A stretch of 64,000 nucleotides of DNA from Pseudomonadota bacterium (GTDB taxonomy: Bacteria; Pseudomonadota; Gammaproteobacteria; Pseudomonadales; Pseudohongiellaceae): NCBI GenBank assembly GCA_027621405.1, contig JAQCBT010000005.1:1-64000 (forward strand), in the 5' to 3' direction. Made by a program: the position numbers and the translations under genes. Positions 2,583 to 23,464 of this stretch are shown here, piece by piece. Each line of letters begins with the position of its first letter. The stretch's first letter is position 1. The notes beneath the pieces are model-generated. The model was not told where the DNA came from, made no database searches, and was given only the letters and a program-made list of their open reading frames with translations.

Positions 2583-2694
2583 GGTAGCTTTTGTCGGTCC
2601 CCGCGCAATGATAGGTTATAAACCCCGCCAGGCCCGGAAGGGAGCAACGGTAGTAACTGACTCATGTGCCGTGGTGTGGCTGGCAAGGGCTACC
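2583..2694 (+). ncRNA. ffs: 4.5S RNA, signal recognition particle RNA
   Basis: The conserved SRP domain IV core is present: CAGGCCCGGAAGGGAGCAAC, with the GGAA tetraloop and asymmetric A-rich internal loop. The ends GGTAGC and GCTACC pair to close the long hairpin. The RNA binds Ffh and targets nascent membrane proteins to FtsY. A TATCAT at 2570-2575 could be the -10 element. The position just upstream of dnaX matches many gammaproteobacteria. The ends are inferred from pairing and may be off by a few bases. Confidence 0.9.
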
Positions 2695-19943: not shown

Positions 19944-20090
19944 GCAATGTTGGGCTGTTAGTCAGGGTCGTCTCTTTTAGAGGGTGTGTGTTTTTAGCGG
20001 AAGCCAACAGGCGTGTCAAATAACGGGCCCATTGCCCCGCTCAGGCACCTGGCTGCGCCGCTGACCAATGGGAATTACCAGGCATTCGCG

Positions 20091-20096
20091 TATAAT
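20091..20096 (+). promoter_or_regulatory. Candidate -10 box for gltX
   Basis: Perfect TATAAT 41 nt upstream of the chosen gltX ATG. No good -35 is seen at 16-18 nt, so it may depend on an activator or on the sequence just upstream. Confidence 0.45.
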
Positions 20097-20136
20097 CTGC
20101 GCCTTCAATATCCAGCGTCCGGTAAAGACAAGAAGT

Positions 20137-21621
20137 ATGACTGAAGTTAGAACCCGAATCGCTCCGTCCCCAACGGGTGATCCCCATGTAGGAACAGCCT
20201 ATATCGCCCTGTTCAACCGTTGCTTCGCCCATAGCCAGGGTGGAAAATTTATTCTCAGGATCGAGGACACAGATCAGCAGCGCAGCACAGGCAAATCGGA
20301 GCAGGACATCCTGGAATCCCTGCGCTGGTTGGGACTGGATTGGGATGAAGGGCCGGGTCGGGAAGGGGACTGTGGACCCTACCGGCAGAGCGATCGTACC
20401 CACATCTATCGGCAGCATATTGAGGCCCTGCTTGAGGCCGGCCATGCCTTCCATTGTTTCTGCACATCTGAGCGTCTGGATGAATTGCGTAAGCAGCAGA
20501 TGGTCGACAAGCAGCAGCTTGGTTATGACGGTCACTGCCTTGGGCTTACCCAGGAAGAAGTCAGTAATAAACTGGCGTCAGGTATCCCACATGTCATTCG
20601 CATGAAGATCCCTGAACATGGAGAGTGTGAATTCGAGGACCTGTTGCGTGGCACGGTCAGCATCGCCTGGTCACAGGTCGATATGCAGGTACTGATCAAG
20701 TCAGATGGCCTGCCAACCTATCATTTTGCCAATGTCGTGGATGATCACCTGATGGGTATCAGCCACGTTATTCGCGGTGAAGAATGGATTAACTCGGTGC
20801 CGAAGCATGTGCAGCTGTATCGCTCATTTGGCTGGCGGGAACCTGTGTTCTGCCATATGCCTCTGCTGAGGAACCCTGACAAGAGCAAGCTAAGCAAACG
20901 CAAGAATCCTACCAGTATCAACTATTATCGAGACATGGGGTATCTGCCTGAAGCCGTGGTGAATTACCTGGGAATGATGGGTTGGTCAATGCCGTCCGGG
21001 GAAGAGAAGTTTTCCCTGGCGGAAATGGAATCGAGTTTTGACATCAGCCGAGTCTCCCTGGGCGGCCCGATCTTCGACGTGGAGAAGCTGAGTTGGCTGA
21101 ACGGTCGTTATCTTCGGGAAAACCTCAGCGATGGGGAATTCGCGGCGCGCTTCCTGCAGTGGGCCACCGCCGGAGGTCGGCTGGAACGGGTAGTGCCGTT
21201 ACTCAAGGAACGAGTGGAAAGATTTACCGATGTAGTAGGCCTGGGCAGCCTGTTTATAGACGGGGTTATCCAGCTACAGGCTGAGAATTTTAAGCACAAG
21301 CAACTGAATGACGAGACTATGGTGAAGATACTGCAATACACACTGTGGCGCCTCGAGGCTCTGCAGAGCTGGGACAGGGACGCCATCGAGTCCTGCTTTC
21401 AGGAGCTGGCGAGCCAGTTGGAACTCAAGATTCGGGATTTCCTGTTCCCGCTGTTCATAGTCATCAGCGGCAAGGCTGTATCAACATCGGTGATCGAGTC
21501 TGTAGCCATCCTCGGTCTCGACATCTCCCGTGCCCGAATCCGCCACGGCATCGAAGTGCTCGGGGGTGTCTCCAACAAGGCCGCAAAGCGGCTGGAGAGC
21601 GAATTCCAGAAGCTGGGATAA
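20137..21621 (+). CDS. gltX: Glutamate-tRNA ligase
   Basis: 494 residues from the ATG at 20137. A frame-compatible ATG at 20068 would add 23 residues, but these span the -10 box and the protein family begins at TRIAPSPTGDPHVG. The HIGH-type motif lies at about 9-18 and the KMSKS-type motif KLSKR at 251-255. It charges tRNA-Glu in a class I aminoacylation reaction. tRNA-Ala follows with its own promoter. Confidence 0.96.
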   Translation: MTEVRTRIAPSPTGDPHVGTAYIALFNRCFAHSQGGKFILRIEDTDQQRSTGKSEQDILESLRWLGLDWDEGPGREGDCGPYRQSDRTHIYRQHIEALLEAGHAFHCFCTSERLDELRKQQMVDKQQLGYDGHCLGLTQEEVSNKLASGIPHVIRMKIPEHGECEFEDLLRGTVSIAWSQVDMQVLIKSDGLPTYHFANVVDDHLMGISHVIRGEEWINSVPKHVQLYRSFGWREPVFCHMPLLRNPDKSKLSKRKNPTSINYYRDMGYLPEAVVNYLGMMGWSMPSGEEKFSLAEMESSFDISRVSLGGPIFDVEKLSWLNGRYLRENLSDGEFAARFLQWATAGGRLERVVPLLKERVERFTDVVGLGSLFIDGVIQLQAENFKHKQLNDETMVKILQYTLWRLEALQSWDRDAIESCFQELASQLELKIRDFLFPLFIVISGKAVSTSVIESVAILGLDISRARIRHGIEVLGGVSNKAAKRLESEFQKLG

Positions 21622-21634
21622 GCGGGTTTTGAAA

Positions 21635-21663
21635 TTGACAGTGCCGGGGAGTGTGCTTAGAAT
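21635..21663 (+). promoter_or_regulatory. Sigma-70 promoter of tRNA-Ala
   Basis: TTGACA (21635-21640), 17-nt spacer, TAGAAT (21658-21663). The following GCGCAGTCC is a GC-rich discriminator, the type seen at stringently controlled stable-RNA promoters. The tRNA begins about 25 nt after the -10. Confidence 0.8.
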
Positions 21664-21688
21664 GCGCAGTCCTTCGCTCAGCGCATGT

Positions 21689-21764
21689 GGGGCCTTAGCT
21701 CAGCTGGGAGAGCGCAACACTGGCAGTGTTGAGGTCACCGGTTCGATCCCGGTAGGCTCCACCA
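21689..21764 (+). tRNA. tRNA-Ala (anticodon GGC)
   Basis: 76 nt with encoded CCA. Acceptor stem GGGGCCT/AGGCTCC (including a G-T pair), D-arm AGCTCAGCTGGGAGAGC, anticodon arm CAACA-CTGGCAG-TGTTG with anticodon GGC, and T-arm CCGGTTCGATCCCGG. The tRNA-Ala identity pair G3-U70 is present. Confidence 0.97.
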
Positions 21765-21793
21765 ACTTAGCTCGCTTACGCTCGCTAAGTTTA

Positions 21794-22042
21794 GTTCGTT
21801 GATCAACTCCCCTGTGTTGAAAGAACTCTAGCTGGGTCGAATAGACCTTCTGATTCCCAGTGTCCCCGCTAACGCTAGTCTAAAGGACAGCAGTATTCAG
21901 CAGACTCATGGCGCATTAAGAATGTTCGTTAATCAATCCCCCTGTACAAGAAGAACTCTAGCTGGGTCGAATAGACCTTCTGATTTCCAGCAAGCCTGCT
22001 AACACTAGACTGAAGGACGGCAGGATTTCCCAGACTCATGGC
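21794..22042. repeat. Tandem 119-nt structured repeat (two copies, 130-nt period)
   Basis: Copy 1 (21794-21912) and copy 2 (21924-22042) align without a gap and share long identical blocks, including the 30-nt stretch from about 21825 to 21856. Both begin GTTCGTT and end CAGACTCATGGC. Each can fold as nested stems: CTAG with CTAG, CTGG with CCAG, and GTC-GAATA-GAC. A degenerate third copy may lie at about 22060-22134, sharing CCGCTAAC and CAGACTCA. The rest of the tRNA-Ala to gltA gap holds a small AACTTAGC/GCTAAGTT hairpin (21764-21791) and no gene. Confidence 0.8.
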
Positions 22043-22186
22043 TCGCGTTCTGATCGTCAGGCAGCGAATCTATCGAAGACTAATTCCCGCCGCTAACTCG
22101 CGTCGAAGATGGGTGCGAGTCAGACTCAAAAGCCATCAAGAATCTGTTGCTATGTCATAGCGAAGAAAACGCCCTGAAAAAGCAAA

Positions 22187-23464
22187 CTAACCTGGATAAT
22201 CTCTCTTGGTATGACCTTTGTATAGCTGCCGCGGTCTACCAATCTTATAGGGGTTGCTCAACATCTCATGCCAATGAGCAATCCACCCAGGCGTACGTCC
22301 AGTCGCAAAGATCACTGTGAACATCTCGGTAGGAATGCCAATCGCCTTAAGAATGATCCCTGAATAGAAATCCACGTTCGGGAACAGCTTGCGCTCGATG
22401 AAGTATTCATCTTCCAGCGCGATCTTCTCCAGCTTCTTCGCCATGCGCAGAAGTGGGTCGTTCTCAGCACCCAGCTCGTCGAGAACCTCATCACAGATGC
22501 CGCGTATAACAGTCGCCCTTGGGTCATAGTTCTTGTAGACGCGGTGACCAAAACCCATCAGCCGGAAGGGATCATTCTTGTCCTTGGCGCGACCGATGTA
22601 TTCTTCGATGCGGGATTCGTCGCCAATCTCATTCAACATGTCCAGCACGGCCTCGTTGGCGCCACCGTGGGCAGGTCCCCACAATGCGGCGATTCCGGAA
22701 GCGATACAGGCATAAGGATTAGTACCGGTGGAGCCGGCGAGACGAACAGTCGAGGTCGAAGCATTCTGTTCATGATCGGCATGTAGCAGGAACAGTGTAT
22801 CCATCGCCTTGGCCAGGATCGGGCTGACGTTGGGTTCCTCGCAGGGGGTGCCAAACATCATGTGCAGGAAGTTTTCCGCGAAACCCATTTTGTTCTGTGG
22901 GTACATGAAAGGCTGGCCCATGCCGTGTTTGAAGCACATCGCCGCCAGTGTCGGCATCTTGGCGATGACACGGTGGGCGGCCAGCAGGCGATGATCAGCA
23001 TTATCGATGTCCAGGTCGTCGTGGTAGAAGGCAGACAGACCGCCGACTACCGCACACAGCATGGCCATTGGGTGGGCATCGCGGGGGAAGCCCCGGAAGA
23101 ACTGGTGAATCGCCTCGTCGACCATGGTGTGGTAACGAATCGTGTTTTCAAATTTATCGGCTTCCTGCTTGCTGGGAAGTTCACCGTGAAGCAGGAGATA
23201 GCAAGTTTCCAGGAAATTGGATTTTTCAGCTAATTGTTCGATCGGGTAACCGCGATGCAGCAATACGCCGGCGCCACCATCGATGTAAGTTATGTCGGAT
23301 TCGCAGGCAGCGGTGGAGACGAAACCCGGGTCATAGGTAAATACGCCTTGTGCGACCAGTCCTCTAACATCGATGACGTCAGGTCCAGTACTTCCTGAAT
23401 AGACGGGCAACTCAATAGGGCTGTCTTTCCCATCAATACTTAACTGGGCCTTCTTCTCACTCAT
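22187..23464 (-). CDS. gltA: Citrate synthase (type II)
   Basis: 425 residues, matching the hexameric, NADH-sensitive gammaproteobacterial type. Family motifs: [32 protein letters not shown] and [15 protein letters not shown], with the catalytic His and Asp regions intact. It condenses acetyl-CoA and oxaloacetate. GGAG lies 8-9 nt before the ATG. It is divergent from sdhCDAB, the standard arrangement, so the shared intergenic region probably controls both. Confidence 0.97.

Follow-up and report, generated by a model that had tools for sequence, protein, structure and literature searches.

Escherichia coli tyrT carries tandem 178-bp units, all of which repeat the tRNA 3' end, and its transcription ends with Rho. 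REP/BIME-type repeats are short, multi-copy and intergenic, and they are sometimes tandem. To our knowledge, the way in which transcription ends at bacterial tRNA genes devoid of an intrinsic terminator has been worked out in detail in few cases. RtT RNA is described as released from a tRNA operon transcript in E. coli (PMC4986893) and as related to dispersed BIME repeats (PMC2965389). E. coli 3'ETS-leuZ is presented as a sponge of RyhB and RybB (PMC8383071). Tycheposons, like tRNA-borne genomic islands, have att repeats made of tRNA ends (PMC10872708), and displaced tRNA fragments marking island ends are a known pattern (PMC4383910).

The locus studied here lies in a stretch of 64,000 nucleotides, hereafter the window. 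On the plus strand, a frame at 20068-21621 adjoins a sigma-70-like promoter site (21635-21663, 11 of 12 consensus positions) and a tRNA-Ala (GGC) gene with encoded CCA (21689-21764), and a convergent frame is called on the minus strand at 22187-23464. We take the two frames to be gltX and, putatively, gltA (citrate synthase). A sequence-only reading of this DNA had placed repeats downstream of a tRNA-Ala promoter and in the gltA 3' region on the other strand, and both placements agree with the promoter-like site and with the end of gltA at 22187. The spacer between tRNA-Ala and gltA, which holds the repeats, measures 422 nt. The median is 143.5 nt in 62 other tRNA-Ala loci, a sample in which at least three loci represent one contig entered twice, and only Halomonas and Salinicola have spacers longer than 422 nt.

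Alignment confirmed the two ungapped 119-nt copies that had been reported. The first (21794-21912, plus strand) and the second (21924-22042, plus strand) are identical at 97 of 119 positions with a period of 130 nt, and each consists of part of an element copy described below together with spacer. They share an identical 35-nt core (21821-21855, partner 21951-21985, plus strand; permutation p 0.004), and a 30-nt piece of it matches twice in the window at up to three mismatches, which none of 100 shuffles did. In blastn searches the 119-nt unit had no match at E 0.01 in 136 other genomes of the bacterial family, the repeat region had none at E 0.001 in 83 other genomes of the genus, and the best match of copy 2 in its own genome, after copy 1, reached only E 0.7. 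A phage or plasmid origin of the 119-nt unit was rejected, blastn having returned nothing at E 1e-5 from 50,697 phage and 72,556 plasmid records, and one exact 20-nt core piece was without match in genome and viral collections; these phage, plasmid and 20-nt searches cover the 119-nt unit, not the wider element family. We also rejected a protein-coding repeat, as each of the six frames contains a stop in at least one copy and codon differences are mostly non-synonymous. A peptide from a 36-codon minus-strand frame of copy 2, read by eye, was discarded as well, the frame being broken in copy 1.

Such a pair might have arisen by neutral tandem duplication of untranscribed spacer DNA and been kept by chance. 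The 22 mismatches between the copies include 15 transitions, there is no coding signal, and the excess of the spacer over the median is about the amount that two duplications would add. Against this stand the 35-nt run spared between the copies and, as described below, the recurrence of the same element behind other tRNAs, in other species and at the same place in the relatives G007 and G008, and we regard neutral duplication as quite improbable.

The sequence-only reading had offered a tRNA-transcript tail as one of several explanations, and this is the one our data support best. Trailers of tRNA genes align over about 86 nt, starting at the first base after CCA, with a conserved block, GNATCTSTTGCTRG, near +55 to +58 after CCA. 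The pattern GAATCTSTTGCTRG, allowing one mismatch, occurs 25 times in the genome from which the window comes (its own genome) and its reversed control not once; all four exact matches there have a tRNA no more than 300 nt away. Across 150 tRNA trailers from five genomes we counted 37 same-strand and 13 opposite-strand motif matches (at least 11 of 14 letters), the 37 including the Leu(TAA) array twice, with the Cys trailer extending into that array. Nine of the 37 start 54-57 nt after CCA, five of them in the own genome, three in G056 and one in G007; since the motif was read from own-genome trailers, only the four in relatives are independent. By itself the motif is unspecific: G029 has 19 pattern matches against one for the control, yet zero element copies. 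The tRNA-Ala trailer reaches 10 of 14 letters by the motif alone, under the cut of 11. When whole trailers were considered, six in the own genome, that of tRNA-Ala included, open with the element, which begins at the first base past CCA or beside it; four of these six lie in tandem arrays by the duplication test described below. In several species the element starts within 2 nt of that base, on the tRNA strand, behind eight tRNAs as distinguished by anticodon. The element typically begins at CCA+1, prevails on the tRNA strand, forms tandem copies and is spread among tRNAs. The reported locus is very probably one of a family of tRNA-trailer elements. This element is apparently undescribed; a full-text literature search, largely of sources other than subscription journals, returned no recognised description of such an element.

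The reported repeats are three decayed tandem copies of the ~86-nt element. A search model of the family (R1) placed copy 1 at 21765-21851 on the plus strand (16.6 bits, E 0.016 in the window) and copy 2 at 21895-21981 on the same strand (8.3 bits, E 1.8, alone not significant), both outside its training set. Copy 1 starts at CCA+1 (R1, covariance model), and copy 2 follows exactly 130 nt later. The degenerate third repeat corresponds to copy 3 (22083-22169, plus strand), which scored 59.2 bits but was in the training set. A fourth copy in the window, on the minus strand at 392-476 behind tRNA-Ser (46-133), resembles copy 3 (0 of 500 shuffles) and was in the training set too. A leave-out profile of 23 copies, zero of them from the window, was scored against 2000 dinucleotide shuffles. 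Copy 1 obtained 7.9 bits (0 of 2000 shuffles as good), with model positions 4-80 at trailer positions 4-81 and hence in register with CCA+1; copy 2 obtained 8.5 bits over model positions 43-79 only (2 of 2000), and the tRNA-Ser copy 18.5 bits (0 of 2000). With 25.5 bits (0 of 2000), the third copy of the sequence-only reading proved real, its direct alignment being marginal: 11 of 1000 shuffles equalled it against copy 1 and 183 of 1000 against copy 2. A ten-trailer profile built without the own tRNA-Ala also finds copy 3 (22090-22165; E 3.9e-4 in 294 kb) and the opposite-strand tRNA-Ser region at 405-466 (locus L216; E 0.015).

Run with strict filters, the R1 search of 136 genomes from the bacterial family was positive in 20, all in one of 8 genera, with 96 matches at E 0.01. 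The remaining 116 genomes had no match, and 16 of the 20 positive ones had contributed no training sequence. At the level of sequence, these 96 copies bear out the earlier suggestion of a family; the structured character that was also suggested is not supported for the reported copies, as set out below. For 15 of the 19 own-genome matches a tRNA is no more than 350 nt away: 11 matches are on its strand and downstream of it, three are downstream but on the other strand, and one is upstream of tRNA-Lys. The remaining four lie away from any intact tRNA on their contig. This near-tRNA share is partly built in because the training sequences came largely from tRNA flanks. A cleaner sample is given by 22 loci fetched from the 16 non-training genomes, drawn from their best-scoring places. 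An intact tRNA is present at 11 of these. At seven the element is downstream on the same strand, four times no more than 2 nt from CCA; at two it is downstream but on the opposite strand, and at two it is upstream. At nine loci the element starts with a tRNA 3' remnant, five detected by blastn and four, ends of 12-14 nt, by eye; neither an intact tRNA nor a tRNA 3' remnant is found at the other two. Most examined copies away from an intact tRNA thus follow a tRNA 3' fragment, and in part this bears out another suggestion of the earlier reading, that of a mobile-element remnant.

Between gltX, tRNA-Ala and gltA, the element was found in three species (the own genome, G007 and G008) among 74 loci searched, of which some are one contig entered twice and some have no spacer. 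The own genome has three copies there; G007 has two, one of 59.0 bits that was in training and a weak one of 22.9 bits, and G008 has two outside training, of 41.8 bits and, weak and partial, 18.2 bits. A match at this place in locus L151 (E 0.54) was left uncounted. Local alignment in the relatives' 63 tRNA-Ala spacers gave three candidates that beat 200 shuffles and were equalled by 8, 12 and 2 of 2000; we did not accept them because they are too weak for the number of tests, and the same alignment missed the G007 and G008 copies later found by the model. We considered and disfavour a tail of the gltA mRNA, since the element lies on the tRNA strand and, by reading, a terminator-like hairpin stands on the gltA side of G007 and G008. 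Other tRNAs differ between species: Arg(TCT) has the element in the own genome and lacks it in G056, and Leu(CAG), which carries it on the tRNA strand in G056, is without it in the own genome.

The tRNA remnants raise the main rival explanation, in which the element serves integrative elements with tRNA targets as recombination site or end sequence, and the arrays are decayed att remnants. Successive integrations would then leave the element behind intact tRNAs and likewise behind tRNA 3' ends that had been displaced. Island-like stretches of G083 (L392), G007 (L394) and G074 (L395), chosen because they hold element copies, do contain arrays of 3' pieces of tRNA-Phe interspersed with ordinary genes, and copies without an intact tRNA nearby often come after such a piece. 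The fragments start in the anticodon arm at nt 30-33, nearly always at 31, and either run to 74-76 or stop at 56-61. Five of them lie within 20 kb of G083, all on one strand; G007 has several, also on one strand, and the two in G074 share the orientation of tRNA-Phe. A tRNA-Pro(GGG) 5' half (nt 1-37) of the own genome stops in the anticodon loop, and an element copy follows directly (contig 32, bases 56-179, and the end of contig 49); this arrangement apparently sits immediately before the intact tRNA-Pro of a neighbouring contig. Such remnants have the look of integration or duplication events recurring at tRNA genes. The genes around the copies fit integration less well. Pfam scans of 49 submitted ORFs, which are part of the ORFs of these regions and include at least two genes submitted twice, revealed no phage integrase and only Mutator-like and IS481-like transposases beside ordinary genes. 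Eight different tRNAs are more targets than would be expected of one integrase. At tRNA-Ala itself, the next gene is gltA, with neither island nor integrase, and the 422-nt spacer bears no trace of a tRNA end: within 21765-22186 the last 40 nt of tRNA-Ala score 17, which 881 of 1000 shuffles equal, and 183 of 1000 shuffles match as well as the whole tRNA-Ala. We consider an integration origin possible, if on the doubtful side. Rather unlikely in our view is a related scenario in which tRNA 3' halves cut at the anticodon arm recur together with the trailer as one unit, in a manner that loosely recalls tRNA-derived short interspersed elements; this unit would seed tandem arrays and islands of ordinary genes, and the genus-specific trailer would set transcript ends.

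We observed that tandem arrangement behind tRNA genes extends beyond tRNA-Ala. A tandem duplication lies within 700 nt downstream of seven of the 34 tRNA genes in the own genome (scores 19 to 42), forming six loci: Ser(GGA), Ala, Cys-Leu(TAA), Leu(TAG), Arg(CCT) and Lys. The best score among 138 control pieces, which were mostly coding, was 14; in a fairer control of 17 ORF-free gaps of the window, only two gaps exceed 10 (42 and 36), and both bear tRNAs. The arrays at Ala, Leu(TAA), Leu(TAG) and Arg(CCT) consist of the element, with a period of 130 at Ala and of 97, 119 and 155 at the other three, and those at Ser(GGA) and Lys consist of another unit. Repeats within 300 nt upstream (score at least 16) were found at three of the 34 tRNAs, namely Met, Leu(GAG) and Leu(TAA). 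At the same score, the downstream test was positive for 0 of 24 tRNAs in G056, 6 of 34 in G074 and 8 of 34 in G029; period-20 arrays at Val and Cys of G007, likely unmasked runs of N, were left uncounted. Arrays are not tied to the element, as G056 with 20 copies has none and G029 with no copy has arrays.

Several of these repeats are of other sequence. The sole other direct repeat of at least 40 nt in the window adjoins its other tRNA gene, tRNA-Ser: a 57-nt tandem pair (214-270 and 291-347, 93% identical, period 77) behind the tRNA-Ser terminator. This unit is dispersed in the own genome, on contigs 15, 16 and 26, the last behind tRNA-Lys, with weaker matches in relatives. At tRNA-Arg(CCT) of G029 a period-149 tandem repeat spans about 600 nt, and its units contain, by reading, the tRNA 3' end, an array that resembles the arrangement known from E. 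coli tyrT. Upstream of a tRNA-Met of the own genome (L171, contig 51) lies a 103-nt direct repeat with 85% identity and a period of 127.

The nested stems of the sequence-only reading (CTAG/CTAG, CTGG/CCAG and GTC/GAC) are not supported, reaching -4.7 and -5.5 kcal/mol in the two copies compared with optima of -27.8 and -22.0 kcal/mol, and their preservation is no evidence of pairing because most stem letters fall in stretches that are identical between the copies. Neither strand of either 119-nt copy folds better than shuffles (z-scores of -0.23 and +1.47 on the plus strand, 0.64 and 1.68 on the minus strand), and the two-copy consensus fold is not below column shuffles, 170 of 300 being as low on the plus strand and 276 of 300 on the minus strand. 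An automatic consensus fold of 25 family copies predicted zero pairs, and no palindromic core was found in the element. One 4-bp hairpin, chosen by eye at alignment columns 41-44/49-52, is paired in 70.5% of 95 cells, with a covariation of 0.315; shuffles gave 0.236, 11 of 500 being as high, and slid versions of the helix gave 0.015-0.193. The search for homologues and covariation among relatives thus yielded homologues, the copies counted above, and weak family-wide support for this single hairpin. Rfam at gathering score reported nothing besides tRNA and SRP RNA in the window, the latter a bacterial small SRP RNA (2592-2688, plus strand, 71.9 bits), and nothing besides tRNA in the other scanned loci. 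At E up to 10, 21760-22200 gave only two chance-level snoRNA matches. The earlier statement that the repeats match no recognised family agrees with this absence of Rfam families at threshold. RtT (RF00391) was rejected as an identity of the element: its gathering score of 45 bits was not reached, and RF00391 was absent from 21760-22200 at E up to 10, from the window at gathering score and from 100-600 at E up to 1.

The lack of a Rfam match at threshold, and of a stable conserved fold beyond the weak 4-bp hairpin, weighs against the possibility that the excised trailer acts as a small RNA or sponge in the manner of E. coli 3'ETS-leuZ, with tandem copies raising the dose. A short conserved block with tandem copies would suit such a role, as would the three element copies behind the own Cys-Leu(TAA) pair, by gene content the counterpart of the E. 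coli case. We consider a small RNA unlikely, and the link to 3'ETS-leuZ may serve as a lead only.

Reading the element as the 3' trailer of the tRNA transcript, we propose that its C-rich and G-poor start would permit transcription termination and 3'-end trimming that depend on a factor. The simplest factor route would be loading of Rho on unstructured C-over-G RNA behind a stable-RNA gene; tandem copies could supply more landing and stop sites, as in E. coli tyrT. We suggest a factor, and Rho most simply, because of the composition of the first 30 nt together with the usual lack of an intrinsic terminator. Over these 30 nt, 11 element trailers average 35% C and 14% G, compared with 26/16 (n=83) and 24/21 (n=35) in others, and since the 11 are related, their compositions are not 11 independent observations. 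The scan called an intrinsic terminator within 120 nt in one of 11 element trailers and in 35 of 113 others, a difference in the expected direction that is not significant (Fisher p 0.17), 78 of the 113 likewise having none by the scan. This table omits 26 of the 150 tRNAs, which are not last in their cluster or are too near a contig end. At tRNA-Ala, the trailer scan found no intrinsic terminator (a G+C-rich stem followed by a T run) within 120 nt, and an intrinsic-terminator scan of 21500-22400 gave one site, in copy 2, the shuffle mean being 0.9. A hairpin on the plus strand at 21764-21791 starts at the last CCA base, has an 8-bp outer stem (-10.8 kcal/mol, z -2.34; 4 of 200 shuffles equally low) and is followed by a short T-rich stretch. 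Without intrinsic-terminator status in the scan, this predicted hairpin might possibly be a weak terminator or a 3' stop.

Several observations speak against this explanation, the occurrence of tandem arrays without the element being one. Copies away from tRNAs, on the opposite strand or upstream of tRNA-Lys are not needed by a pure terminator, and Rho sites have no strict consensus, so that the conserved block of the element argues against a Rho site. We propose a role in termination tentatively and judge it somewhat less than an even prospect. The reading as a tRNA-trailer element, with termination included, appears to us the best explanation overall and has a nearly even chance of being correct as a whole. 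The trailer would moreover be an exchangeable module, as suggested by tRNAs that carry it in one species but lack it in another; duplication or displacement of a tRNA 3' end would take the trailer along.

A second type of trailer was noticed behind intrinsic terminators. It is hairpin-rich and, by reading, lies between TTCGA and GAATC of tRNA T-loop-like sequence. We saw it at the own tRNA-Phe (L331, 1345-1466, minus strand) and Lys and at Arg(ACG), Arg(TCG), Arg(TCT) and Phe of relatives. The trailer of the own tRNA-Phe has a sub-threshold RF00391 match (26.2 bits, E 0.19), and this second type may be a distant relative of RtT.

A trailer that is common to many tRNAs and recognisable by sequence provides a defined object for 3'-end mapping, and its gain and loss between related species lets one ask how tRNA trailers are swapped. 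Compared with REP/BIME repeats, the element sits mostly at tRNA 3' ends rather than in the spacers of genes at large, and it has no palindromic core. Like tRNA-borne islands and tycheposons, it is associated with displaced 3' pieces of tRNAs that point the same way and are spaced by ordinary genes; in contrast to these, no tyrosine recombinase is among the scanned ORFs, the repeat extends about 86 nt past the tRNA, and the element also occurs at intact tRNAs without an island. 3'ETS-leuZ of E. coli glyW-cysT-leuZ is likewise a tRNA trailer and has a separate function, whereas the element described here is common to many tRNAs. Closest in arrangement are the tyrT repeats and RtT RNA (RF00391), which like our element are repeated sequence directly behind tRNA genes with dispersed relatives. 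The tyrT units carry the tRNA 3' end, while the units at tRNA-Ala hold no recognisable one, as judged by the shuffles above. Our data suggest that repeats following tRNA genes, as at E. coli tyrT, also came about in a different lineage, with unrelated sequence.
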